A stretch of 44,483 bases of DNA from Thermoleophilaceae bacterium (GTDB lineage Bacteria > Actinomycetota > Thermoleophilia > Solirubrobacterales > Thermoleophilaceae): NCBI GenBank assembly GCA_016929195.1, contig JAFGJG010000112.1, positions 1 through 44,483 on the forward strand. The letters are read 5' to 3'. Each line of letters opens with the position of its first letter. The first letter of the stretch is position 1. The notes beneath the pieces are model-generated. The model saw only the letters and a list, made by a program, of their open reading frames with translations. It was not told where the DNA came from and ran no database searches. Positions 5,368-33,246 of the stretch are shown here, piece by piece. The translations under genes and the position numbers were made by a program.

Positions 5368-5846
5368 ACCGCAAGCTGCTCAGCATCTATCTGAACGACC
5401 ATCTGGCCGGCTCGACGGCGGGCGCGGAGCTCGCGCGGCGCGCGGCCGGCTCGAACGAGGGCACCGAGTACGGGACCTTCCTGTCGACGCTCGCCGGCGA
5501 GATCCAGGAGGACCGCGAGAGCCTCCAGGACATCATGAGGCGCCTCGAGTTCGGCGAGGACATCCCGAAGAAGGTCGCGGCCTGGACCGCCGAGAAGGTC
5601 GGCAGGCTCAAGCCGAACGGGCAGCTGCGCGGCTACTCCCCGCTCAGCAGGGTGGTCGAGCTGGAGGGCCTCGCTCTCGGGATCACCGGCAAGCTCGCGC
5701 TGTGGAAGGCCCTCCTCGAGCTCGTGGACGAGGAGCCGCGCCTGAAGGCCGCAGAGTTGAAGCGGCTGCGCGAGCGCGCCGAGCGCCAGCAGCGTGACGT
5801 GGAGGAGCGCCGCCTCCGCGCCGTGAGCGAGACGTTCCGCGGCTAG
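5364..5846 (+). CDS. Conserved hypothetical helical protein coupled to RNase D
   Basis: 160 residues, started by the ATG at 5364-5366 that overlaps the RNase D stop. No family I can name with certainty. The sequence is almost entirely helical: an N-terminal LLSIYLNDHLAGSTAGAELARRAA segment, a charged TLAGEIQEDRESLQDIMRRL helix, a middle region (LKPNGQLRGYSPLSRVVELE) and a C-terminal Arg/Glu-rich coiled region (KRLRERAERQQRDVEERRLR). The LND-LAGS-AGAELARR opening recalls four-helix bundle proteins. No signal peptide or membrane segment, so cytoplasmic. Its stop codon shares a CTAG with the stop of the converging lipoprotein gene. Confidence 0.85.
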   Translation: MNRKLLSIYLNDHLAGSTAGAELARRAAGSNEGTEYGTFLSTLAGEIQEDRESLQDIMRRLEFGEDIPKKVAAWTAEKVGRLKPNGQLRGYSPLSRVVELEGLALGITGKLALWKALLELVDEEPRLKAAELKRLRERAERQQRDVEERRLRAVSETFRG

Positions 5847-6445
5847 CGCGCGACCCGCTTCAGGACCCCGTCGAGGCGCCGGAACGAGGCGCCGGTCCCG
5901 CGCCGCGGCCCGCCGAGCCAGGCGACCATGACGGTCCCGCCGGCGTAGAACGCGTGGGCGGTGTGGAGACGGTCGCCGAGGGGGTCGGTCTCTGCACGCC
6001 AGACGATTCCGCGCGCGTCGGGCATGGCCGCAGGGACGATGTCATCGAGGCCGCCCACGTCGACCAGCCTGTGCCCGCCCTTCGCGACGTAGAGGGAGAA
6101 GCTGCCGAAGCGCTCGAGCGCGTCGTCCGGAAGCGGGTTGCCCCGGGCGTCGGCCGTCGGGAGGCTCAGCACCGCGTGGCGCGCGGACGCGCTCTCGACG
6201 ACGAGCCGCTCGCCGGTTTCGCGCTCGAACCCCTCCACGACCTCCTCCGGCGGCGGGCCGGCCACCTTCCGCTCGGCCGGGAGCTGCGCTCGGACGGCGC
6301 TGCGCTGCGCGGGTGTCTTCGCCGCCGCGAGCCGTGCCGATCCGTCGATGACGGGCGTGTCGGAGCCGCCGTCGGAGGCTTCCTCCGAGGAGCAGCCGGC
6401 GAGGGCGATCGCGAGGGCGGCGGCGAACGTGCTTGCGCGGCGCAT
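5843..6445 (-). CDS. Putative lipoprotein under a metal-type operator
   Basis: 200 residues. A typical lipoprotein signal peptide ends in the lipobox LAGC with lipidated Cys18 (MRRASTFAAALAIALAGCSS), followed by a disordered Ser/Gly/Glu linker. The mature domain (about 60-200) has no motif I recognise; it contains ADARGNPLPDDALERFGSFSLYV, which resembles predicted beta-sandwich secreted proteins of actinobacteria. The most telling feature is its position: its ATG (6443-6445) begins inside the palindrome TTAGGGTACCCTAA, and the FhuC-like ATPase starts 15 bases away on the other strand. This suggests co-regulation with the metal transporter, perhaps as an accessory envelope protein. Function unknown. 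Confidence 0.85.
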   Translation of the reverse strand: MRRASTFAAALAIALAGCSSEEASDGGSDTPVIDGSARLAAAKTPAQRSAVRAQLPAERKVAGPPPEEVVEGFERETGERLVVESASARHAVLSLPTADARGNPLPDDALERFGSFSLYVAKGGHRLVDVGGLDDIVPAAMPDARGIVWRAETDPLGDRLHTAHAFYAGGTVMVAWLGGPRRGTGASFRRLDGVLKRVAR

Positions 6446-6458
6446 TAGGGTACCCTAA
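6445..6458. promoter_or_regulatory. Metal-regulator box (14-bp palindrome), site 1
   Basis: TTAGGGTACCCTAA is a perfect palindrome. Its first base is shared with the start codon of the minus-strand lipoprotein, and it ends two bases before the ATG of the FhuC-like ATPase. The half-site TTAGG resembles the outer part of DtxR/IdeR boxes, but the spacing is four bases instead of nine. On the minus strand TAGGGT plus six bases leads exactly to the lipoprotein ATG, as expected for the -10 element of a leaderless promoter. The same motif recurs at 10168-10195, 16035-16048 and 32574-32601. Confidence 0.8.
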
Positions 6459-6460
6459 CC

Positions 6461-7285
6461 ATGGCCCTGCGAGCCGACGCCCTCACCCTCGCATACGACA
6501 GCCGCGTGGCCGTCAGCGACGTGGACCTGGAGGTTCTCGAGGGGGCCGTCACCGCGATCGTCGGCGCCAACGCGAGCGGCAAGTCGACGCTCCTGCGCGG
6601 GCTCGCGCGGCTGCTGCGGCCCCGCTCCGGCTCCGTCCTGCTGGACGGAGCCGATATCGCGACGCTCAGGACACGGGAAGTGGCGCGGCGCATCGGGCTC
6701 CTCCCCCAGGCCCCGGTGGTGCCCGACGCGATCACCGTCGAGGAGCTCGTCGCCCGCGGGCGCTATCCGCACCAGCGCCTCCTTCGCCCGATGTCCCGGG
6801 AGGACCGGGACGAGGTCGAGCGGGCGCTCGCCGCGACCGGAGTCGAGGACCTGCGCGACCGCCTGCTGGACGAGCTCTCCGGCGGGCAGCGCCAGCGCGC
6901 CTGGATCGCGATGGTGCTCGCGCAGGAGACGCCGCTGCTGCTGCTGGACGAGCCGACCACCTACCTCGACCTGGCGCACCAGATCGAGGTGCTCGACCTG
7001 CTCGAGGACCTCAACCGCGGCGAGGGCAGAACCGTCGTGATGGTGCTCCACGACCTGAATCAGGCCTGCCGCTACGCCTCCCACGTGGTCGCGCTCCTCG
7101 ACGGCCGCGTCCACGCCGTCGGGCGACCCGCCGAGATCGTGGACGAGGAGTTGATCGAGACGGTCTTCGGAGTGCACGCGCGGGTCGTCCCCGACCCCGT
7201 CCGGGGTACCCCGATGTGCGTGCCGCTGGGCCGCGGCGATCAGGCCGCCACCGCCCTTCCGCGCAGCAGCAGCCACCCGAGATAG
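6461..7285 (+). CDS. Iron-siderophore/metallophore ABC transporter ATPase (FhuC/FepC-like)
   Basis: 274 residues. All ATPase motifs are present: Walker A GANASGKST (35-43), Q-loop LLPQAP (80-85), signature LSGGQRQR (139-146), Walker B LLLLDEP (159-165) and the switch His197 (VLHD). The RGRYPHQ stretch after the Q-loop and TTYLDLAHQIEVLDLL are typical of FhuC/FepC/BtuD-type importers. It powers uptake of chelated metal through the neighbouring permease. It is the only ATPase of this type in the window, although there are two permeases, so it may serve both. The ATG is two bases from the 6445-6458 box, so the message is nearly leaderless. Its 3' end overlaps the converging permease gene by 46 bases. 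Confidence 0.93.
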   Translation: MALRADALTLAYDSRVAVSDVDLEVLEGAVTAIVGANASGKSTLLRGLARLLRPRSGSVLLDGADIATLRTREVARRIGLLPQAPVVPDAITVEELVARGRYPHQRLLRPMSREDRDEVERALAATGVEDLRDRLLDELSGGQRQRAWIAMVLAQETPLLLLDEPTTYLDLAHQIEVLDLLEDLNRGEGRTVVMVLHDLNQACRYASHVVALLDGRVHAVGRPAEIVDEELIETVFGVHARVVPDPVRGTPMCVPLGRGDQAATALPRSSSHPR

Positions 7286-9240
7286 GGCGCGCCCACCACG
7301 GCGACCACGAGCCCGGACGGCAGCTCCGTGGGCGCGAACGCGAGGCGCCCGAGGACGTCGGCGCCGGCGAGCAGCGTCATGCCCAGCACGATCGCCAGCG
7401 GCAGCAGGCGGCGGTGCCCGCCCCCGGCCACGAGCCGGGCCGCGTGCGGTGCCATCAGGCCGACGAACGCGATCGCGCCCGTGACCGCCACCGCCGCTGC
7501 GGCCAGCGATGCGCCCAGCGCGAGCAGCCCGATGCGAACGCCCCGGAGGCGCAGCCCGAGTGCCGCCGCCGCATCGTCGCCCAGCGCGAGCACGTCGAGG
7601 CGGCGCACCGCCAGGAGCGCGAGCGGCAGCAGGACCGCGGCCGGAACCGCAAGCAGCGTGAGCTCGTCCCAGCCGCTCGCGTAGGTCGAGCCGGCCAGCC
7701 ACGCGACCGCCACGCCCGCCTCGGGCTGGGCATCCAGCAGCATCAGGGCCGTGACCGCGGTGCACGCCGCCGTGACGGCGAGCCCGGTGAGCGCCAGCCG
7801 CGACGGTGAGGCGCTGCGCGGGCCGGCCAGGAGCAGCACCACCGCGAGCGCGCCGACGCCGCCGGCGAAGGCGGCGAACGGGAGCAGGCCGGACGGAGCT
7901 TCCGGGAAGGCCAGGAGAACGGCGAACGCCCCGAGCGAGCCGCCGCCGGTCACACCGAGGAGGTCCGGGCTGGCGAGCGGGTTGCGCACCACCCCCTGCA
8001 TCAGGACGCCGGCGGCCGCCAGGCACGCGCCGGCGAGCAGCGCCACGGCGAGCCGAGGTCCACGGAGGTCGAACGCGATCTCGGCCAGCGGGCCGCCCTG
8101 ACCCGCCACCGCGCGCGCCATCTCGGAGACGCTCACCTCGAGCTCGCCCAGGCACAGCGACGCCGCGGCCGCGGCCGGCAGGAGCAGCAGCAGCGCGAGG
8201 GCGAGACGCGGCCGTCGCCGCGCCGCCGCGCGCGCGGGCTCTGCCACGGCTCCGGTCTCAGCGGGCAGGCGCCGCGCCAGCGCGACGAGGACGGGCGCGC
8301 CGATCAGCGCGCAGACGATCCCGGCCGGGGTCTCGCTCTCCGTGCCGAGCAGGAGGCGCGCCGCCACGTCGGCGGCGAGCACGATCGCGGCGCCCCACGG
8401 CACGGCCACGGCCAGCAGCTCCAGATGGTTGCGCGGGCGCGCCGCGCGCGCTGCGAACGCCGCCAGGAGGCCGGCGAAGCTGATCGGTCCCGCGACCGCG
8501 ACCGCGGCCGCCGCGAGCACCGCCGCGGCGAGGCCGGCGGCGGCCTGCACGCGCCCGGCGTGCTGGCCGAGCGAGCGCGCGGCGGCCTCCCCGAGCACGG
8601 CCACGTCGAGCGGGCGCGCCAGCAGCAGCGCCGCAAGCAGCCCGGCAGCCGCCGCGGGCGCGGCGGCGGTGACCGTCCCCCACCCGAGCTGCATCAGCGA
8701 GCCGGCGCCCCAGAGGAACAGCCCGCCGGTCTCGGTCTCGCGCACCAGCCGGATCGCGGCGGTCACCGCCGACAGCGCGAGGCTCACGGCCATGCCGGCG
8801 AGCAGCAGCCTCACCGGCCCGGCCCGGCCCACCGCGGCCAGGGCACCCACGAGCAGCGCGCCCGCAAGCACTCCGCCGAAGGCGGCGGCGATCGTCGTGC
8901 CGGCCGTGGCGGTGGATGCGTACGCCGAGATCGCGGTCACGGCGAGCGCACCGCCCGCGGTCAGGCCGAGGATGCCCGCGTCCGCCAGCCGGTTGCGCGT
9001 GACCGCCTGCAGCAGCACCGCCGCCGCCGCGAGCGAGCCGCCCGCGAGCGCGCCCGCGGCGGCCCGCGGCAGGCGGATGTCCTCGACGATCGCGCGGTCG
9101 AGCGCGCGGCCGCCGCCCGTGAGCGCCGACAGCGCCTCGGACACCGTCATCCCGCCCTGCCCCTGAAGCACATCGGCAAGCGCGGCGAGCAGCGCCGCGG
9201 CGACGCCGGCGGCGGCCACCGCCGCCGCCCGCCCGCTCAC
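7240..9240 (-). CDS. Fused double permease of a metallophore ABC transporter (FhuB-like), copy 1
   Basis: About 666 residues, twice the usual FecCD length: two FecCD permease halves in one chain, as in E. coli FhuB. Each half has the family pattern: LPRAAAGALAGGSLAAAAVLLQAVTRN with GILGLTAGGAL in the N-terminal half, and GPRLAVALLAGACLAAAGVLMQGVVRNPLASPDLLGVTGG in the C-terminal half. The coupling segment APHAARLVAGGGHRRLLPL and the closing ELPSGLVVAVVGAPYLGWLL are FecCD hallmarks. The start is the GTG at 9238-9240, overlapping the stop of the binding-protein gene as GTGA. It probably imports a ferric or other metal chelate across the cytoplasmic membrane with the FhuC-like ATPase. Confidence 0.93.
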   Translation of the reverse strand: MSGRAAAVAAAGVAAALLAALADVLQGQGGMTVSEALSALTGGGRALDRAIVEDIRLPRAAAGALAGGSLAAAAVLLQAVTRNRLADAGILGLTAGGALAVTAISAYASTATAGTTIAAAFGGVLAGALLVGALAAVGRAGPVRLLLAGMAVSLALSAVTAAIRLVRETETGGLFLWGAGSLMQLGWGTVTAAAPAAAAGLLAALLLARPLDVAVLGEAAARSLGQHAGRVQAAAGLAAAVLAAAAVAVAGPISFAGLLAAFAARAARPRNHLELLAVAVPWGAAIVLAADVAARLLLGTESETPAGIVCALIGAPVLVALARRLPAETGAVAEPARAAARRRPRLALALLLLLPAAAAASLCLGELEVSVSEMARAVAGQGGPLAEIAFDLRGPRLAVALLAGACLAAAGVLMQGVVRNPLASPDLLGVTGGGSLGAFAVLLAFPEAPSGLLPFAAFAGGVGALAVVLLLAGPRSASPSRLALTGLAVTAACTAVTALMLLDAQPEAGVAVAWLAGSTYASGWDELTLLAVPAAVLLPLALLAVRRLDVLALGDDAAAALGLRLRGVRIGLLALGASLAAAAVAVTGAIAFVGLMAPHAARLVAGGGHRRLLPLAIVLGMTLLAGADVLGRLAFAPTELPSGLVVAVVGAPYLGWLLLRGRAVAA

Positions 9241-10136
9241 CTGACGAGCGCGCCGGTGATCCGCTGGGCGAGGACGCGCGTGGCGAGCGGCCCGCCGAAC
9301 GGCCACGTGTTTCCCGGCACGGTGCGGGCCCGGCCGTTGCGCGCCAGCGCGAGCTCGGTCCAGGCGTCCTGCTCCTGGATGCCGCGGATGATGTCGCTGA
9401 ACTGCCTCGGGTAGGCGAACACGAACCAGTTGCGCTCGACCTTCCGGAGCTGCTCGATGCCGCCCTCCGTGTACCCGTAGTGGCGCGGCTTCGCGGTCCA
9501 CGCGTTGCGGAGGCCGAGGCGCCGGAGCACGGCGGCCGTGACGGAGTTGTCCGTGAACAGGCGCAGCCCCGGCGCCGCGAGGGTGCCGCCCGCCATCCCC
9601 ACCGTCACCTTGGCGCGCGCGAGGCCCGCCTTCTTCAGCCGCTTGCGGAGCGGGGCGTAGGAGCGGTCGAGGCTGCGGATCACCGCGTCGGCCCGGGCCC
9701 GCCTTCCGACGGCCTTCGCAACCTGGCGCAGCTCGTCGAGCATCACGCGGTACTGCGTGTCGCGCCCCTGCTTCTGCGGGAATGGATTCATGATCTTCAC
9801 GCGGGCGATCTCGCGCAGCTGGTCCAGGCTGCGGACGATCCGGCCCTTCGGCGCGATGATCAGGTCGGGCTCGAGGGCGGCGATGCGCTCCAGGCTCGGC
9901 TCCGTGCGCGTACCCACGTCCTTCACGCCGGCCGGGACCTGCACCGGCGTCCAGTCCTCCATCCCCTTGATGTCGGCGATCCCCACCGGCCTGACGCCCA
10001 CGGCCAGCAGGTCCTCGGCGTAGTTCCACTCGATCGCGACCACGCGCTTCGCCGGGCCGGCGCCGGCGGGCGCGGCGGAGAAGGCGGCGACGAGGGCGAG
10101 AGCGGCCCCGAGGGCCAGGGTCAGTCGTGGACGCAT
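9237..10136 (-). CDS. Metallophore-binding protein (FhuD-like), copy 1
   Basis: 299 residues from ATG 10134-10136, supported by GGAGG nine bases upstream; the signal peptide follows (RLTLALGAALALVAAFSAAPAGAG). The mature part opens with KRVVAIEWNYAEDLLAVGV and RPVGIAD, the FhuD arrangement of EW, LLAxG and GIAD, then DVGTRTEPSLERIAALEPDLII, the standard type III binding-protein lobe. It should capture a hydroxamate-type siderophore or another metallophore. It has no cysteine at all, so it cannot be a lipoprotein, unusual for a binding protein of a Gram-positive organism. It is first in the fhuD-fhuB unit and lies behind the tandem boxes at 10168-10195. Confidence 0.92.
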   Translation of the reverse strand: MRPRLTLALGAALALVAAFSAAPAGAGPAKRVVAIEWNYAEDLLAVGVRPVGIADIKGMEDWTPVQVPAGVKDVGTRTEPSLERIAALEPDLIIAPKGRIVRSLDQLREIARVKIMNPFPQKQGRDTQYRVMLDELRQVAKAVGRRARADAVIRSLDRSYAPLRKRLKKAGLARAKVTVGMAGGTLAAPGLRLFTDNSVTAAVLRRLGLRNAWTAKPRHYGYTEGGIEQLRKVERNWFVFAYPRQFSDIIRGIQEQDAWTELALARNGRARTVPGNTWPFGGPLATRVLAQRITGALVR

Positions 10137-10167: not shown

Positions 10168-10195
10168 TTAGGCAACCCTAATTAGGCTACCCTAA
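10168..10195. promoter_or_regulatory. Tandem metal-regulator boxes, site 2
   Basis: Two abutting 14-base palindromes: TTAGGCAACCCTAA (10168-10181) and TTAGGCTACCCTAA (10182-10195). They fill the core of the divergent region between the FhuD-like gene (ATG at 10136, minus) and the PKD-ExbB-DUF2149 operon (TTG at 10203, plus). On the minus strand TAGGGT in the box plus six bases predicts a transcript start about 33 bases before the FhuD ATG, leaving room for its GGAGG. On the plus strand TAGGCT predicts a start about 8 bases before the TTG. The abutting arrangement is repeated at 32574-32601. Confidence 0.82.
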
Positions 10196-10202
10196 CCGCG
10201 CT

Positions 10203-11318
10203 TTGCGCTGCCTCACGGCCCTCGCCACGACCGCCGCCCTGCTCGCGCCCGCCGCCGCCGCGAGCGCCGAGCCCGGAGTGTCCGTCGAGCTCCCCGAGCG
10301 GACCGTGTTCCTCTCCGCGGACGAGCTCGCCGCCGACGCCGACGTGCCCGCGACCGAGTACACCCTGCGAGCCGAGGGCGGTCAGGCCACACGCGAGACA
10401 CACGCAGGCATCTCACTGGGGCGGCTCGTGGCGCTCGCGGGCGGCAACCCCGACGTGGTCGCCGGCGTGACCGTCTCCGCCGGGGATCGGGAGAGCTACC
10501 TGCCGGGCGCCGACCTCGCCGATCCGCCGCCCTTCCCCGAGGGCCCCGCGCTCGTGTGGGTGGAGGGGGACGTGACGGGCTACCTGCGTCCCGTCCGCGA
10601 CGACGCCGACGTGAACTCGGGTGACCGGCTCACGAGCGAGCCCGGCGCGTCCCTCACCGTCGCGGTGCAGACGGGCGCGCTGCTCGAGGTCACGGCCGGC
10701 AGCGACCGCGAGAGGGTCGCCCCGCGCAAGCCCGTGGGCTTCTGGGCGTCCGCGCTGGGCGGCGAGGGCGGCGAGCAGCTCACCTACCGATGGCGCTTCG
10801 GGGACGGGACCACCGCCACCGGGCAGGAGGTGCGCCACGCCTACAGGCGCCCCGGCCGCTACCGCGCGTCGGTCTCCGTCATCGGGGACGGACGCTCCGG
10901 CGGGACCTCGGAGGCGGTCACCATCACCGTCGGCAAGCCGCCGGCCGAGGCGGCCGGCGACGGCCGCGGCGGCGGCGGCGGCGGGAAGGACGAGGGGACG
11001 GCCTCGGGGGCCTTCGACGGCGGCTCCGGCTCCACGGGTGCGAAGGCCGGTCCCGGATCGACCAGGCCGAAGGCGAGGCCCCGGGCCGCGCCGGAGCCGA
11101 CCGCGCCGGGGCGACGCGTGAGCGGCCGCCTGCTCGACGAGGCGGCGACCGCGGCACCGCCCGCGCTCGGCGCCGCCACGGGGACGGCAGGCGCGGTGAA
11201 GGCCGCCGGGGGGGAAGCCCCCGGGGCCCTGCCGCTGGCCGGCATCGCCGCGATCGGGCTGCTCGCCGCCGGAGCCTTGCTCGAGCTGCGGCCGCGGCGC
11301 CGAACCCACCCGGCATGA
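10203..11318 (+). CDS. Membrane-anchored PKD-domain surface protein of the metal-uptake operon
   Basis: 371 residues from TTG 10203; an in-frame stop in the operator leaves no earlier start. Layout: signal peptide (1-22); an N-terminal beta-rich domain (25-160) with ISLGRLVALAGGNPDVVAGV and EGDVTGYLRPVRDDADVN that I cannot assign firmly; a PKD domain (about 165-244: TYRWRFGDGTTATGQEVRHAY then RRPGRYRASVSV); a 95-residue Gly/Pro/Ala/Lys linker (245-340); one membrane helix (343-361, LPLAGIAAIGLLAAGALL) and a basic tail. The protein thus stands outside, tethered by a flexible stalk. It overlaps the ExbB-like gene as ATGA. A stalked anchor beside an ExbB-type motor could play a TonB-like or substrate-handing role; that is inference. 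Confidence 0.85.
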   Translation: MRCLTALATTAALLAPAAAASAEPGVSVELPERTVFLSADELAADADVPATEYTLRAEGGQATRETHAGISLGRLVALAGGNPDVVAGVTVSAGDRESYLPGADLADPPPFPEGPALVWVEGDVTGYLRPVRDDADVNSGDRLTSEPGASLTVAVQTGALLEVTAGSDRERVAPRKPVGFWASALGGEGGEQLTYRWRFGDGTTATGQEVRHAYRRPGRYRASVSVIGDGRSGGTSEAVTITVGKPPAEAAGDGRGGGGGGKDEGTASGAFDGGSGSTGAKAGPGSTRPKARPRAAPEPTAPGRRVSGRLLDEAATAAPPALGAATGTAGAVKAAGGEAPGALPLAGIAAIGLLAAGALLELRPRRRTHPA

Positions 11319-11962
11319 ACGCACTCGCAGCGCTCGAGAACGACGTCATCTTCCACGTGGCCGAGGCGCTGCGGGTGCCCGTGCTAGTGCTGACGATGGC
11401 GGCGCTCGCCGTCGTGCTCGTCGAGCTCGGGGCGTTCTGCGTCGAGCTGGTGCGCCGGCGGCGGCGCGACTACGGGCGGCTCGAGACCGCCGTGACACAC
11501 GCCAGCGCGGTCCTCCGCGAGCGCGGCGACCGGGCCTCGGCGCAGGCCATCGTGGGCGACGTGGCCTGGAGCGCCCCGATGGCGAGCACGCTCGACTTCC
11601 TCGTGGCGCAATGGGCGCTGCCCGGCGGCGAGGCGCGGATGGCCAAGGCGCTCGCCGACTTCGACTTCGGCTCGCTGCGGCGGCTCGAGCGCACGCGCCT
11701 GCTCGTGCGGGCGGGGCCAGCGCTCGGGCTCATGGGAACCCTGATCCCGCTCTCCCCCGCGCTCGCCGGGCTCGCGGCGGGCGACGTGCAGGAGCTGTCC
11801 GAGAACCTGCGCGTGGCTTTCAGCGTGACGGTGCTCGGCCTGCTCGTGGGCGCGGTGGCCTTCGGGATGTCGCTCGTCCGCGACCGTCTCTACGGCCAGG
11901 ACCTCTCGGACCTCGAGTTCGTGGCCAACGCGCTCACGGCCGGCCCGGAGCCGCGCGCTTGA
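11315..11962 (+). CDS. MotA/TolQ/ExbB-family proton channel subunit
   Basis: 215 residues. Membrane helix 1 is at about 20-45 (VPVLVLTMAALAVVLVELGAF), followed by a cytoplasmic stretch rich in Arg. The MotA_ExbB core comes next: RAGPALGLMGTLIPLSPAL (about 133-151), then the LSENLRVAFSVTVLGLLVGAVAFGMSL pair (about 163-189), which matches the family pattern PxLGLxGTVxGM...AF...T..GL. These proteins form proton-conducting pentamers that drive TonB, Tol or flagellar machines. It is coupled to the PKD gene upstream (ATGA) and to the DUF2149 gene downstream (TTGA). ExbB homologues next to FhuBD-like genes usually energise outer-membrane receptors, none of which is seen here. Confidence 0.88.
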   Translation: MNALAALENDVIFHVAEALRVPVLVLTMAALAVVLVELGAFCVELVRRRRRDYGRLETAVTHASAVLRERGDRASAQAIVGDVAWSAPMASTLDFLVAQWALPGGEARMAKALADFDFGSLRRLERTRLLVRAGPALGLMGTLIPLSPALAGLAAGDVQELSENLRVAFSVTVLGLLVGAVAFGMSLVRDRLYGQDLSDLEFVANALTAGPEPRA

Positions 11963-12288
11963 TCCCGGTCAGCCGGCGGGCCCGCGGCCACCCCGACCGC
12001 GGCGGCGACCCGCTCGACGGGCTGGTGAACCTGTTCGACCTCGGCATCGTGCTCGCGGTCGCCTTCCTGCTGGCGACGCTCTCGTCGCTGAAGCTGTCGT
12101 CCCTGCTCACGGACGAGGACGTGACGGTCGTGCGCAGCACCGAGGACTCGAGCACCGTCATCGTGAAGCGCGGGCAGAAGGTGCGCGCCACCCGCCTCGA
12201 GGGCCGCCGCGTGGTCGGGCGCGGCGAGCGGATCGGCTCGGTCTACCGCCTGTCGGACGGCAGGACGGTCGTGGTGGAGGGCCGGTGA
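11959..12288 (+). CDS. DUF2149 family protein, likely ExbD-like partner of the proton channel
   Basis: 109 residues from TTG 11959-11961, overlapping the ExbB stop. A short cytoplasmic N-terminus ends in GDPLDGLVNLFDLGIVLAVAFLLATLSS: one membrane helix entered by Asp27. ExbD, TolR and MotB have the same layout, with a single helix and an essential Asp near its start. The outside part (about 50-109) holds two small strand-rich segments, VTVVRSTEDSSTVIVKRGQ and ERIGSVYRLSDGRTVVVEGR. The N-terminal DPLDGLVNLFDxGIVLAVAFLLA pattern is what I know as DUF2149 (found in methanogens next to ExbB-like and CobN-like genes). I infer that it is the stator partner of the 11315-11962 product. Confidence 0.82.
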   Translation: MIPVSRRARGHPDRGGDPLDGLVNLFDLGIVLAVAFLLATLSSLKLSSLLTDEDVTVVRSTEDSSTVIVKRGQKVRATRLEGRRVVGRGERIGSVYRLSDGRTVVVEGR

Positions 12289-13145
12289 GCGCCGCCCGGC
12301 ACACCTATGGCGAGAGCGCGTTCGCGGAGACGCCCGACGGCCGCCGGCTCCACTACATGGAGGCCGGGCGCGGAGCGCCGGTGGCCGTCTTCGAGTCGGG
12401 CATGGGGATCTCGCGGTCGACCTGGGGCCTCGTCCAGCCGCGCGTGGCCGAGCACGTGCGAGCCGTGGTCTACGACCGCGCCGGGCTGGGCCGCAGCGAC
12501 CCGGACGCCGAGCCGCGCACGCTCGAGCGGCTGGCCGCGGACCTCGGCGCGCTGCTGACGGCGCTCGGCCCAGGCCCGTTCGTGCTCGTCGGGCACAGCT
12601 GGGGCGGCCCCGTCGTCCGGCGCGCCGCCGCCGCGGACCCGAGCCGCATCCGCGGGCTCGTGCTCGTCGACCAGACGGACGAGAACTGCGACCTCTACTT
12701 CTCGCCCGCCGGCCGCAGGCGCTTCGCGAGCGCGCGTGTCCTCACGCCCCCGGCGGCGCGCGTGGGCCTGTACCGGCTGGCGGGAAGCCGGCCCGGACGG
12801 GTCCAGCCGCCGGACGTGGCCGCCGAGCACCGCGCGGAGGACTTCACACCGCGCGCGGCCAGGGTCATGGCGGCCGAGCTGGCGGCCTTCACCGACGAGC
12901 TGAGCGCGCTCCGCGCGCACCCGCCCGCGCTGGGCGACATCGAGGTGAGCGTCATCTCGGGGACGAAGCCCACGCGCGCCGACAAGAAGGTCCGCACCGC
13001 CGTGACCGCAGCCCACCGCGAGACCGCGGAGGCCCTGGCGGGCGGCCGCTTCGTCGAGGCGGCCGGCTCGGCGCACCTCGTGATGTTCGACGAGCCCGGC
13101 GTGATCGTCGGGGAGATCCTCGAAATGGTTGACAAGGAGTCCTGA
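12285..13145 (+). CDS. Alpha/beta hydrolase in the metal-uptake operon
   Basis: 286 residues from GTG 12285-12287, overlapping the DUF2149 stop as GTGA. Alpha/beta hydrolase fold: YDRAGLGRSDPD (63-74) after strand 4, nucleophile elbow VGHSWGGP with Ser105, and a C-terminal AGSAHLVMFDEP carrying the likely catalytic His. No signal peptide, so cytoplasmic. It ends in TGATG with the next FhuD-like gene. Its place between a motor operon and a binding protein fits an esterase that opens an imported ester- or amide-type metallophore to release metal, but alpha/beta hydrolases are very diverse and this is only context. Confidence 0.9.
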   Translation: MSAARHTYGESAFAETPDGRRLHYMEAGRGAPVAVFESGMGISRSTWGLVQPRVAEHVRAVVYDRAGLGRSDPDAEPRTLERLAADLGALLTALGPGPFVLVGHSWGGPVVRRAAAADPSRIRGLVLVDQTDENCDLYFSPAGRRRFASARVLTPPAARVGLYRLAGSRPGRVQPPDVAAEHRAEDFTPRAARVMAAELAAFTDELSALRAHPPALGDIEVSVISGTKPTRADKKVRTAVTAAHRETAEALAGGRFVEAAGSAHLVMFDEPGVIVGEILEMVDKES

Positions 13146-14038
13146 TGCGTCTCATCCGTCTCGCCCTGCTGCCGGCCCTGGCCGGCCTGGTCCTGCTGCC
13201 GGCCGCGGCCGCCGGCGCTCCCAAGCGCATCGTCTCGATCGAGTGGGAGAACACCGAGAACCTGCTCGCGCTCGGGATCAAGCCGGTGGGGATCGCGGAC
13301 GCGGAGACCATGAGCACCTGGACTCCCATCGTGCCGCCGAAGGCCACCGACGTGGGCTCGCGCATCGCGCCGAACATCGAGCGCATCGCCTCGCTCGAGC
13401 CGGACCTGATCGTCGTCACGACCCGCGGGGGGGCGCCGCCCTTCGTCCGCCAGCTGCGCCAGATCGCCAAGACCCTCGTGCTCGACCAGTACGCGGGCAA
13501 GCGCACGGACGGCTCGCTCTACGACGCGATGATCAGGGGCCTCCGGCGGACCGCCGCCGCGGTGGGCCGGCGCGCGCGCGGCGAGACCGTGATCCGCTCG
13601 CTCGAGAGCACCTACGCCAAGCTGCGCAAGCGCATCAAGCGAAAGGGCCGGGCCGGTGACAGGGTCGTCTTCTCATACCCCTGGGGCGCCCCCGGCCGCC
13701 CGATGGTCCAGCTCGCGACGGACAACGGCATGCCCGCGACGGTGCTCCGCCGCCTCGGGCTCCGCAACCCGTGGCACGGCCAGCGCGGCCGGTACGGCTT
13801 CACCCGCATCTCGCCGGAGGGCCTCGTGAAGGTCCAGAAGGCCGATTGGGTGCTGTTCCCGCTCGCGCGCGAGTTCAGGGAGGAGTTCGGCCAGGTCACC
13901 TCGCAGCCGTTCTTCAACCGGCTCGACTTCGTGAAGCGGGGGCGCTTCCGCACGCTCGCCGGGAACACCTGGCCGTACGGCGGGCCGCTGTCGGCGAAGG
14001 TCCTCGCTCAGCGCGTGGCGGGCGCGATCACGCGCTGA
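13145..14038 (+). CDS. Metallophore-binding protein (FhuD-like), copy 2
   Basis: 297 residues; ATG 13145-13147 overlaps the preceding stop by one base and has AAGGAG 5-6 bases upstream. Signal peptide (RLIRLALLPALAGLVLLPAAAAGA), then KRIVSIEWENTENLLALGI and KPVGIADAE, the same EW/LLALG/GIAD signature as copy 1, and DVGSRIAPNIERIASLEPDLIVV. Both copies end almost identically (GNTWPFGGPL or GNTWPYGGPLSAKVLAQR), so they are paralogues. Like copy 1 it contains no cysteine and cannot be lipidated. It is the last gene of the PKD-ExbB-DUF2149-hydrolase operon and converges on its probable permease two bases away. Confidence 0.92.
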   Translation: MRLIRLALLPALAGLVLLPAAAAGAPKRIVSIEWENTENLLALGIKPVGIADAETMSTWTPIVPPKATDVGSRIAPNIERIASLEPDLIVVTTRGGAPPFVRQLRQIAKTLVLDQYAGKRTDGSLYDAMIRGLRRTAAAVGRRARGETVIRSLESTYAKLRKRIKRKGRAGDRVVFSYPWGAPGRPMVQLATDNGMPATVLRRLGLRNPWHGQRGRYGFTRISPEGLVKVQKADWVLFPLAREFREEFGQVTSQPFFNRLDFVKRGRFRTLAGNTWPYGGPLSAKVLAQRVAGAITR

Positions 14039-14040
14039 CC

Positions 14041-16035
14041 TCAGGCGGCGGACGCACGCGTTCGCAGCAGGAGCCAGGCGAAGTAGGGCGCGCCGATCAC
14101 GGCGACGACGATGCCGGACGGGATCTCGGTAGGCGCGAAGGCGAGCCTGCCGATCACGTCGCCGGCCGCGAGCAGGCTCATCCCGAGCCCGATCGCCACG
14201 GGCGTGAGCAGCAGGTGCCGGCTACCCACGAGCAGCCGGCCCGCGTGTGGCGCGACGAGGCCGACGAAGGCCGTCGCGCCGGCGACCGCCACGGCCGTCC
14301 CGGCGAGCGCGGCCCCGAGCAGCAGCAGCGCGGCGCGCGAGGCACCGAGCGGCAGCCCGAGCGCGGCGGCCGTCTCGTCGCCCAGGCCGAGCACGTCCAG
14401 CGCGCGCCCCGCGAGCAGGGCGAGCGGCAGGAGCAGGAGCGCGGGGACCGCGATCAGCCAGAGCTCCCGCCAGCCGACGCCGTACGTCGACCCGGCGAGG
14501 AAGGTGACCGCCGTGGTGGCGGCCGGGTCGGCCCGGAAGACGAGCACGGCCGTGAGCCCCGAGCAGAGGGCGGTCACGCCGAGGCCCATCAGGGCGAGCC
14601 GGACCGGCGACGCGCTGCGCGGCCCCGCCAGCGCGAGCACGGCCGCCAGCGCAGCGACGCCGCCGGCGACCGCCGCGACCGACAACCCCCAGGCCGGGAC
14701 GGAGGACGCGAGCAGGAGCAGGGCGAGCGCGCCGACCGACGCGCCGCCCGTGACCCCCACCACCTCGGGGCTCGCGAGCGGGTTGCGCACGACACCCTGG
14801 AAGATCGTGCCCGCAGCCGCCAGGCAGCCGCCGGCGAGCATCGCCACGCCGAGCCGCGGGGCGCGCAGGTCGATGGCGAGGTCGGCCAGCGGGCTGCCCG
14901 CGCCCGCGGCCGCGCGCGCCAGGTCCGCCGGCCCGACCGTCAGCTCCCCGAGGCAGAGGCCGGCGAGCGCGCTGCACGTGAGGAGCGCCGGGACGGCCAG
15001 GGCCAGCCCGCGCCGGCGCGAGAACCCTGCGCCCTCGGTAACGACCGGCGCGACGTCCGCGGGCAGCCGGCGTGCGACGAGGATCAGCACCGGCGCGCCG
15101 AGGATCGCGCACGTCACCCCCACGGGCATCTCCGCGTCCGCCCCGAGCGCCAGGCGCCCGATCACGTCCGCGAGCAGCACGAGCGCGCCGCCCCAGGGAA
15201 CGGCCACCGCCAGGAGCTCCCACCGGGAGCTCGCCCCGCTCGCGCGCGCGACCGCCACGGCGGCGAGGCCCACGAACGCGATCGGCCCGGACACGCCGAC
15301 CGCCGCCGCGGTGAGGACGACGGCCGCCGCGGCCGCGGCGACGGTGACGGCGCGCGTGCGCTGTCCGAGCGCACGCGCGGCCGGGGCGCCCAGCACCGCC
15401 ACGTCGAGCGGCCGCGCGAGGACGAGCGCCGCGCCGAGCGCCACGGTGGCCACCGCGGCCGCCGCCTCGACGTCGTCCCAGCCGAGCTGCACCAGCGATC
15501 CGGCGCCCCAGAAGAAGAGGTCGGCCGTGCGCGTCTCGTCCAGCAGCTGGATCGCCGACGTCAGGGCGGCCAGCGCGAGGCTCACGGCCATGCCCGCCAG
15601 GACGAGCCGGAGCGGACCGGCCCGCGCCGCCAGCGCGAGCGCGAGGACCACGAAGCCGCCGATGGCCACGCCGGCGCCTGCAACGAGCACGGCGCTGAGC
15701 CCGCCGCCGCCCGACCCGACGGTCGCCCAGAGCGCGATCGCGAGCCCCCCTCCTGCGGTCAGCCCGAGCGTGCCCGGCTCGGCCAGCCGGTTGCGCGTGA
15801 GTGCCTGGAGCAGCACCGCCGACGCGGCCAGCGACCCACCGGCGACCACCCCCGCCGCGGCGCGCGGGGCGCGCACGCTCTGCACGACGCCGTCCTCGAC
15901 CGTGCCGTTCGGGTCGAAGAGCCCGGTCAGGACCTGGCTCGCTGCGACCCCGCCCGACCCCTGGAGCATGTCGGCGAACGCCGCCAGGACGAGCACCGCC
16001 AGGCCGGCGCCGGCGACCCACAGCGAACGGCGCAT
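14041..16035 (-). CDS. Fused double permease of a metallophore ABC transporter (FhuB-like), copy 2
   Basis: 664 residues, a second FhuB-type double FecCD permease, clearly paralogous to 7240-9240 along its whole length (VRAPRAAAGVVAGGSLAASA, LTRNRLAEPGTLGLTAGG, VVRNPLASPEVVGVTGGASV, ending in EIPSGIVVAVIGAPYFAWLL). Some twenty hydrophobic helices are expected. No ATPase lies next to it, so it probably borrows the FhuC-like ATPase at 6461. It is convergent with the second binding-protein gene, its likely partner. The ATG (16033-16035) shares its A with the last base of the box at 16035-16048, giving a predicted leaderless message. Confidence 0.93.
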   Translation of the reverse strand: MRRSLWVAGAGLAVLVLAAFADMLQGSGGVAASQVLTGLFDPNGTVEDGVVQSVRAPRAAAGVVAGGSLAASAVLLQALTRNRLAEPGTLGLTAGGGLAIALWATVGSGGGGLSAVLVAGAGVAIGGFVVLALALAARAGPLRLVLAGMAVSLALAALTSAIQLLDETRTADLFFWGAGSLVQLGWDDVEAAAAVATVALGAALVLARPLDVAVLGAPAARALGQRTRAVTVAAAAAAVVLTAAAVGVSGPIAFVGLAAVAVARASGASSRWELLAVAVPWGGALVLLADVIGRLALGADAEMPVGVTCAILGAPVLILVARRLPADVAPVVTEGAGFSRRRGLALAVPALLTCSALAGLCLGELTVGPADLARAAAGAGSPLADLAIDLRAPRLGVAMLAGGCLAAAGTIFQGVVRNPLASPEVVGVTGGASVGALALLLLASSVPAWGLSVAAVAGGVAALAAVLALAGPRSASPVRLALMGLGVTALCSGLTAVLVFRADPAATTAVTFLAGSTYGVGWRELWLIAVPALLLLPLALLAGRALDVLGLGDETAAALGLPLGASRAALLLLGAALAGTAVAVAGATAFVGLVAPHAGRLLVGSRHLLLTPVAIGLGMSLLAAGDVIGRLAFAPTEIPSGIVVAVIGAPYFAWLLLRTRASAA

Positions 16036-16048
16036 TAGGGCACCCTAA
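16035..16048. promoter_or_regulatory. Metal-regulator box, site 3
   Basis: TTAGGGCACCCTAA on the plus strand, a near-perfect palindrome and the same 14-base motif as at 6445. Read on the minus strand the box runs straight into the ATG of the second FhuB-like permease: TAGGGT, six bases, then ATG. A regulator bound here would cover the -10 element and the transcript start together. No gene starts on the plus strand nearby, so this is a single-direction site. Confidence 0.78.
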
Positions 16049-32573: not shown

Positions 32574-32601
32574 TTAGGCTGCCCTAATTAGGGTCCCCTA
32601 A
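32574..32601. promoter_or_regulatory. Tandem metal-regulator boxes before the cysteine-free S4 gene, site 4
   Basis: Two abutting palindromes: TTAGGCTGCCCTAA (32574-32587) and TTAGGGTCCCCTAA (32588-32601), the same arrangement as at 10168-10195. TAGGGT in the second box plus six bases puts the predicted transcript start at about 32601, followed by AAGGAGG (32603-32609) and the GTG of rpsD at 32617. The divergent GMC operon starts at 32544, so the pair sits between two promoters. Confidence 0.82.
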
Positions 32602-32616: not shown

Positions 32617-33246
32617 GTGGGTAGGTACACGGGTCCACGCGAGCGCCTGTCCCGGCGGGCGGGCGTCGATCTGGAGCTGAAGGGCGAGCGCCGCATGGCC
32701 CGCAAGGGCGGGCTTGAACGGAGGCCCCACCCGCCCGGCGAGCACGGCCGGACCTCCGGCCGCCGGCCCTCGACCTACGAGCGGCAGCTGCGCGCGACCC
32801 AGGCTGCGAAGCGCTACTACGGCGTGCGCGAGCGCCAGTTCCGCCGCTACGTCCGCGAGGCCCAGCGGACGCTCGACGCGCTCACCGGCGACCGGCTGCT
32901 CCAGCTCCTCGAGCTCCGGCTCGACAACACGCTCGTGCGCCTCGGGTTCGCCGCCACGCGGGCGCAGGCGCGCCAGTTCGTCGTGCACGGCCACGTGGAC
33001 GTGGACGCCCGCCGCAACGACATCCCGTCGCGCCGCCTCTCCCCCGGCGACGTCGTCTCGATCCGCCTCGGCAGCTCGGTCAGCGAGGCCGCGCGGCGCG
33101 CCTCCGAGCTCGTGGACCGCGTGCCCGCCTGGCTCCTTGCCGACCACGAGGCGCTCGTGGGGCGCGTGATGCGCGACCCGCACCGGGACGAGATCCAGAC
33201 GCCCGTGGACGAGCAGCTGATCGTCGAGTACTACAGCCGGGTCTGA
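32617..33246 (+). CDS. rpsD: Ribosomal protein uS4, zinc-independent (cysteine-free) paralogue
   Basis: 209 residues from GTG 32617, with AAGGAGG seven bases upstream. The S4 sequence is complete: MGRYTGPRERLSRRAGVDLE, LKGER, LERRPHPPGEHGR, RQFRRYVREAQ, the S4 RNA-binding domain RLDNTLVRLGFAATRAQARQ with VVHGHVDVD, and the ending VDEQLIVEYYSR. In zinc-binding S4 the N-terminus has four cysteines (positions 9, 12, 26, 31 in the Thermus numbering I recall); here those positions are Glu9, Ser12, Arg26 and Gly31, and the protein has no cysteine at all. It stands alone, away from the rpsM-rpsK-rpoA operon, behind tandem metal boxes, so it is most likely a backup S4 used when metal is short. Confidence 0.94.
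   Translation: MGRYTGPRERLSRRAGVDLELKGERRMARKGGLERRPHPPGEHGRTSGRRPSTYERQLRATQAAKRYYGVRERQFRRYVREAQRTLDALTGDRLLQLLELRLDNTLVRLGFAATRAQARQFVVHGHVDVDARRNDIPSRRLSPGDVVSIRLGSSVSEAARRASELVDRVPAWLLADHEALVGRVMRDPHRDEIQTPVDEQLIVEYYSRV

Follow-up and report, generated by a model that had tools for sequence, protein, structure and literature searches.

A putative ExbB-DUF2149 motor with a candidate stalk protein beside Fhu-like importers in a soil actinobacterium

In a soil actinobacterium of the family Thermoleophilaceae (assembly GCA_016929195.1), five overlapping genes at positions 10203-14038 of contig JAFGJG010000112.1 encode a PKD-domain protein, a MotA/TolQ/ExbB-family subunit, a DUF2149 protein, an alpha/beta hydrolase and a FhuD-like binding protein. 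These genes were analysed within a stretch of 44,483 nucleotides, which is referred to as the window, and were compared with their relatives in other actinobacteria. Here, we discuss whether the first three genes, the PKD-ExbB-DUF2149 trio, may encode a motor driven by the proton-motive force (PMF) that assists metal uptake in a cell with no detectable outer-membrane receptor.

Gene organisation and iron-type operators

The features at the locus are as follows.

5843-6445, minus strand: lipoprotein-like gene; its start abuts the operator at 6445, making it a possible member of the same regulon
6445-6458: operator TTAGGGTACCCTAA, between the lipoprotein gene and the FhuC-like gene
6461-7285, plus strand: FhuC/FecE-like ATP-binding cassette (ABC) ATPase; NCBIfam FecE/FepC/FhuC-type models, below cut-offs
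7240-9240, minus strand: FhuB-like double permease 1, with two FecCD units (Pfam FecCD 8e-144)
9237-10136, minus strand: FhuD-like binding protein 1; ATG at 10136 preferred, TTG at 10175 lying inside the operator
10168-10195: two tandem palindromic operators, TTAGGCAACCCTAA and TTAGGCTACCCTAA, between the divergent FhuD1-FhuB1 genes and the PKD-ExbB-DUF2149 operon
10203-11318, plus strand: PKD protein, stalk or transducer candidate, TTG start (Pfam PKD_4 4e-16)
11315-11962, plus strand: MotA/TolQ/ExbB-family subunit (Pfam MotA_ExbB 8e-7)
11959-12288, plus strand: DUF2149 protein of the HmuV family, TTG start (Pfam DUF2149 6e-21)
12285-13145, plus strand: alpha/beta hydrolase (Pfam Abhydrolase_6 4e-20)
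13145-14038, plus strand: FhuD-like binding protein 2 (Pfam Peripla_BP_2 4e-19; FhuD model 3e-34, below cut-off)
14041-16035, minus strand: FhuB-like double permease 2 (Pfam and NCBIfam matches)
16035-16048: operator TTAGGGCACCCTAA, at the start of FhuB2

The five genes are real and joined by overlaps of 4, 4, 4 and 1 bases; gene calls and Pfam bear out the reading of genes, overlaps and families given in an initial annotation of this DNA. Fhu-like genes flank the run on both sides, and with a FhuD-like protein, a FhuB-like double permease and a FhuC/FecE-like ATPase they recall the FhuBCD hydroxamate siderophore importer. However, the NCBIfam FhuD, FhuB and FecE models match strongly, yet below their equivalog cut-offs, which leaves the exact chelate of these importers unsettled. 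FecCD genes occur at only two places in the source genome, one of them in the window, so that a random gene would rarely lie this near to one. The alpha/beta hydrolase of the run is a possible siderophore esterase.

The window holds six sites with the operator motif TTAGG-N4-CCTAA (12 strand matches versus 0.5 expected, with a closely related degenerate pattern), and the genome about 16, versus one for the reversed pattern. The paired copies at 10168-10195, which had been overlooked in the initial annotation, head the PKD operon; because this motif also stands before Fhu genes in the window and before Efe, SUF, ferritin-like and siderophore genes at other sites, we infer that this operon is iron-regulated. 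Other genomic targets include an iron-type substrate-binding protein/permease pair divergent from SufB, ferritin-like proteins (Ferritin_2), two siderophore-binding proteins (Peripla_BP_2), permeases of the FecCD family, and Efe-type (EfeO/EfeB) imelysin/Dyp-peroxidase genes. The site presumably resembles the DtxR/IdeR box and, judged by this resemblance and by its targets, it would belong to a DtxR/IdeR-type regulon. The shared regulon argues for the iron or siderophore use that had been proposed for this locus. The operators at 6445-6458 and 16035-16048 directly abut the start codons of the FhuC-like and FhuB-like genes; this leaves no space for a ribosome-binding site, hence, the transcripts are likely leaderless, with the operator placed over the -10 element.

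Two further tandem iron-type operators lie at 32574-32601, between a GMC-oxidoreductase/monooxygenase operon on the minus strand and, on the plus strand, a paralogue of ribosomal protein S4 without cysteines (32617-33246). A similar S4 paralogue, lacking the N-terminal cysteines, is found inside an iron/heme locus of a relative (L133, 7103-7735), which suggests an iron-dependent replacement of the Cys4 form of S4. A Zur-type operator, considered since the cysteine-less paralogue shares the site, was rejected because the other targets are iron genes.

The ExbB-DUF2149 pair and the stalk protein

The source genome, which is 97.6% complete, contains two MotA_ExbB genes, each paired with a DUF2149 gene. 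In the window, the ExbB-family protein matches PF01618 with 29.2 bits (gathering cut-off 22.9); its residues T142 and T172, which align with T148 and T181 of Escherichia coli ExbB, are invariant in 39 sequences of the class. The adjoining DUF2149 protein matches PF09919 with 75 bits (cut-off 27.1) and is composed of one predicted membrane helix (18-43) and a small C-terminal beta domain. The helix is N-terminal and carries, close to its entrance on the cytoplasmic side, the aspartate singled out in the initial annotation, Asp27, counted from the TTG start and kept in 36 of the 39 class sequences. Upon HHalign comparison with an ExbD/TolR reference set of 15 sequences from plasmid records and E. 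coli, DUF2149 NLFDLGIVLAVAFLLA was aligned on ExbD PFIDVMLVLLIIFMVA, bringing Asp27 onto Asp25 (P 5.5e-4). A Foldseek search with the DUF2149 model (moderate confidence), the short beta domain included, gave no significant match in the PDB, and a PDB sequence search with the ExbB and DUF2149 profiles gave no meaningful one. Altogether, the constant adjacency to ExbB, the single helix and the Asp27-Asp25 register favour the earlier view of DUF2149 as an ExbD-like partner, the profile match being weak. In three loci (L044, L045, L047), Asp27 is substituted and Asp17 and Pro18 are still invariant; these loci are natural test cases for a proton relay.

This pair has a counterpart in heme uptake. 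In Porphyromonas, Prevotella and Bacteroides, hmuU and hmuV are adjacent in hmuYRSTUV heme operons, which are strongly induced by iron starvation, with HmuU being annotated as MotA/TolQ/ExbB and HmuV as DUF2149 (PMC10434189). While no homology was found for HmuV in work on P. gingivalis (PMC13227078), Bacteroides authors have termed HmuU/HmuV ExbB/ExbD-like, thus already making the same proposal for HmuV (PMC10100974). The locus in the window shares with the Hmu system the adjacent ExbB-family and DUF2149 genes and the link to iron; it differs in that a stalk protein and ABC importers are present, that relatives serve other metals, and that the source genome has no match to an HmuR-type receptor or to HmuS/CobN (PF02514). 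As to the absence of a TonB-dependent receptor from the window, stated in the initial annotation, this extends to the draft genome, where no match to PF00593 was found and none to ExbD/TolR (PF02472) at E <= 0.001.

The PKD protein is predicted to consist of a signal peptide, a head domain (22-158), a PKD domain (158-245), a disordered linker, a VSGRLL motif and a C-terminal membrane helix. In the AlphaFold2 model, built with ten relatives, residues 22-245 are ordered, most of 252-344 has a pLDDT below 50, and the membrane helix spans 346-361; the linker (245-340) and the anchor helix (343-361) had been noted before. Structure comparison of the predicted model assigns a sulfite-oxidase (SUOX) fold, previously overlooked, to residues 22-158, with the pterin-binding protein PruR as the best match (7kp2; Z 12.8, 120 residues, root-mean-square deviation 2.6) and sulfite oxidases at Z of about 10-11.6; residues 158-245 match a collagenase PKD domain (Z 13.3). 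Cysteine is absent from the ordered domains, and thus the protein is not a molybdenum enzyme of the sulfite-oxidase type. No TonB domain was found by Pfam in the stalk protein, to which the search for that domain was confined.

All 27 PKD-type relatives carry, ahead of the membrane helix and about 60-80 residues short of the C terminus, a [VIL]xGx[LV][LIV]-like motif. Among the loci, two types of anchor ectodomain were recognised by Pfam, either PKD or a squalene-hopene-cyclase-like toroid, and in both a similar VxGx(L/V/P)(L/V/I) (VxGxLL-like) motif stands ahead of the C-terminal membrane helix; given its shortness, this motif is, for the toroid type, suggestive of common descent but no proof of it. 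The second ExbB-DUF2149 pair of the source genome (L003, 9490-16333, contig C89) is preceded by a toroid-type membrane protein as well as by three or more related secreted proteins of unknown family. Neither an importer nor an iron operator was found beside that pair.

Importers and regulatory elements among actinobacterial relatives

DUF2149 was detected in 46 of 299 genomes of the class and in 13 of 396 genomes of the phylum sample. Neighbourhoods were collected at 40 places and 80 named loci and, after removal of identical DUF2149 proteins, yielded 88 non-redundant loci; genes were called heuristically with our own script, the loci partly stem from fragmentary metagenome assemblies, and related loci are not independent. 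In 115 of 117 copies, and in 86 of the 88 loci, the gene called immediately ahead of DUF2149 is ExbB; the remaining two loci have a gap of fitting size. A single-helix anchor lies directly upstream of the pair in 51 loci and nearby in eight more. Copies occur, among others, in the cultured actinobacteria Solirubrobacter soli, Nocardioides, Aeromicrobium and Frondihabitans, the latter three being monoderm genera.

Within eight genes, an importer is present in 40 of the 88 loci, namely Tup/Wtp (21), FecCD siderophore/heme (11), energy-coupling factor (ECF) with CbiQ (7), and ABC-3 (1). The identity of the Tup loci is based on NCBIfam matches to TupA, TupB and Mop-domain regulators. There, the trio sits between tupA and tupB of the TupABC tungstate importer, whereas the window has no Tup genes. 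In all 18 loci where TupA was called, the start of TupB is found at -40 to +16 bases relative to the stop of DUF2149, indicative of translational coupling, and nine of these 18 have Mop-type regulators. The gaps between TupA and ExbB are nearly all about 1.25-1.7 kb, and a direct scan for open reading frames finds the anchor in most of them; the clear exception is L074, with a gap of 85 bases. Nine loci, FecCD ones with few exceptions, have genes of the HtaA heme-binding type (assigned by Pfam for the L054 member and by clustering for the others). On the ExbB tree (FastTree, read by eye), association with FecCD is seen at no fewer than three separate positions and that with ECF at two. The ABC-3 locus of Patulibacter (L063, 1325-8923) combines the Zn/Mn-type importer with the PKD-ExbB-DUF2149 trio and with several surface proteins of the choice-of-anchor M kind. 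Five importer-less copies of one Solirubrobacterales clade (L059, L062, L121, L134, L137) have a gene for a MetH-like methionine synthase in their vicinity, and their ExbB gene is preceded, at a distance of 18-22 bases, by an operator-like site.

The regulatory elements follow the importers. With up to one mismatch allowed, the iron operator was found in 11 of 11 FecCD loci (37 sites versus 2 in the control) and in 11 of 46 loci without an importer, but in none of the 21 Tup, seven ECF and one ABC-3 loci; an iron operator common to all loci is hence rejected. It lies at most 160 bases from the ExbB gene or the operon head in seven FecCD and eight importer-less loci (control 0). A cobalamin riboswitch heads all five ECF operons with enough upstream sequence, as well as the DUF4430-toroid-ExbB-DUF2149 operons in L065 and L067; in L149, a riboswitch is nearby, but ExbB-DUF2149 is on the other strand. 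No cobalamin riboswitches were found in seven Tup loci or in the window. The toroid stalk of the B12 class and the DUF4430 lipoprotein presumably recall the two domains of transcobalamin. Loci with an importer nearby, taken together with those whose operon is headed by a metal-cofactor regulatory element, make up 50 of the 88, and element and importer match.

Functional interpretation and alternatives

On balance, we consider it somewhat probable that PKD-ExbB-DUF2149 is a PMF-driven motor which has its own transducer and aids the import of iron siderophores. In this motor, ExbB subunits would form the channel ring, and DUF2149 would be the axle or gate, with an Asp in its membrane helix relaying protons as it does in ExbD, TolR and MotB. 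The PKD protein, held by its C-terminal helix, would extend its disordered linker outward to the PKD domain and the SUOX-fold head, so that motor cycles might move or tension the stalk and thereby help capture or release of the metal chelate, which would be handed over to the FhuD/FhuB/FhuC-type ABC importers. Candidates for the powered step are capture through the wall, ligand release from the binding protein, and importer gating. The module would be generic, with relatives linking the motor to importers of tungstate, heme or cobalamin, each controlled by the regulator that fits.

The proposed arrangement shares with the Ton system an ExbB-family channel, a one-helix partner that bears an Asp in the membrane, a tethered single-helix protein whose linker is flexible, and a role in metal-chelate uptake. 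It departs from ExbB-ExbD-TonB in that the ExbD profile does not match DUF2149, that a TonB receptor was not found, and that the stalk, unlike TonB, is anchored by its C terminus and not its N terminus and lacks a TonB-domain match. TolQ-TolR-TolA, MotA-MotB and the vWA-type force transducers (PMC12204202) likewise count among the PMF-driven 5:2 motors, whose output proteins vary; what sets the present system apart is the SUOX-PKD or toroid output domain, the monoderm host and the tie to metal importers. Full-text searches of the literature found no description of this arrangement, which is not proof that none exists.

Several observations weigh against such a motor. ABC and ECF importers already use ATP, leaving a second energy source unexplained; 48 of the 88 loci have no metal or metallocofactor importer within eight genes, and 29 have no recognised anchor. 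In the ExbB-family protein, V167 stands at the position of ExbB Glu176, a mark of the ExbB subgroup. DUF2149 resembles ExbD weakly and over a short stretch of 21 columns (HHalign probability 30%), the protein is probably too short to hold the full ExbD periplasmic domain, and three Thermoleophilia metagenome loci have Val, Thr or Tyr instead of Asp27. The tie to metal transporters, on which the initial proposal of a TonB-like energiser leaned, is mixed, holding for 40 loci and failing for the other 48, ten of which have an iron operator or a B12 riboswitch at the operon head. From that proposal, iron use at this locus is retained, whereas its metallophore specificity is not, given that over half of the neighbouring importers are for tungstate and others for heme, cobalamin and possibly Zn/Mn; a module for siderophore uptake only is rejected by the Tup and ECF loci. 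The role of the PKD protein as a transducer is plausible on the grounds of synteny and the shared membrane-proximal motif.

More tentatively, and with somewhat less confidence than in the iron-siderophore role, the module may be seen as a general cell-surface force machine of actinobacteria. The ExbB-DUF2149 motor and a TonB analogue of reversed topology would power the capture of metals and metallocofactors across the thick monoderm wall, being recruited to importers under each metal's regulator. As a part of this tentative picture, the stalk would comprise the C-terminal membrane helix, the VxGxLL docking motif, the disordered linker and an exchangeable ligand-binding head, possibly SUOX-PKD for iron and tungsten and a transcobalamin-like toroid for B12.

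Alternatively, ExbB-DUF2149 and the stalk could act as a PMF-linked sensor or gate which perceives an extracellular ligand or the envelope state and regulates the importer without mechanical work. The likeness of the SUOX-fold head to PruR, a ligand-binding fold, the sufficiency of ATP for the importers and the existence of stand-alone copies are in line with this; however, the invariant Thr pair and the nearly invariant Asp suggest an ion-conducting motor, and no signalling gene is constant in the neighbourhoods, rendering this explanation unlikely. Improbable, too, is a function of DUF2149-ExbB (HmuUV) as an inner-membrane permease that helps a metal, freed or as a chelate, across, with the stalk as its receptor. 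In work on P. gingivalis, a possible passage of heme through the inner membrane by way of HmuTUV has been suggested (PMC13227078). Against this function, the actinobacterial operons come with dedicated ABC or ECF permeases of their own, HmuS/CobN was not found in the source genome and, as is generally held, channels of the ExbB family pass ions and not chelates. Slightly less credible still is a Ton-like system that extends to some cryptic outer membrane, or to a lipid layer, and works on a receptor that escaped recognition: the pair is ExbB/ExbD-like and has been proposed to power an outer-membrane receptor in Bacteroidota (PMC10100974, PMC12583661), but the source genome has neither a TonB-dependent receptor nor an ExbD match, and copies exist also in the monoderm genera named above. 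Finally, decayed Ton remnants, in analogy to the occasional monoderm Ton genes regarded as likely non-functional (PMC12204202), are highly improbable in view of the strong conservation of motor residues across loci, the translational coupling, the repeated importer association on the ExbB tree and the metal-specific regulation.

Current understanding has PMF-driven 5:2 motors serving outer-membrane work, motility or phage defence, with monoderm Ton genes being probably non-functional (PMC12204202). If a PMF-driven motor assists uptake as favoured here, ATP-driven importers of cells without an outer membrane would also depend on mechanical or PMF input at the surface, and DUF2149, a family of unknown function within the heme operons of gut Bacteroidota, would gain a function. 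Bacteria without an outer membrane may, thus, power metal uptake with a mechanical motor, too, and the cultured carriers Solirubrobacter soli, Nocardioides, Aeromicrobium and Frondihabitans would make this motor accessible to experiment.

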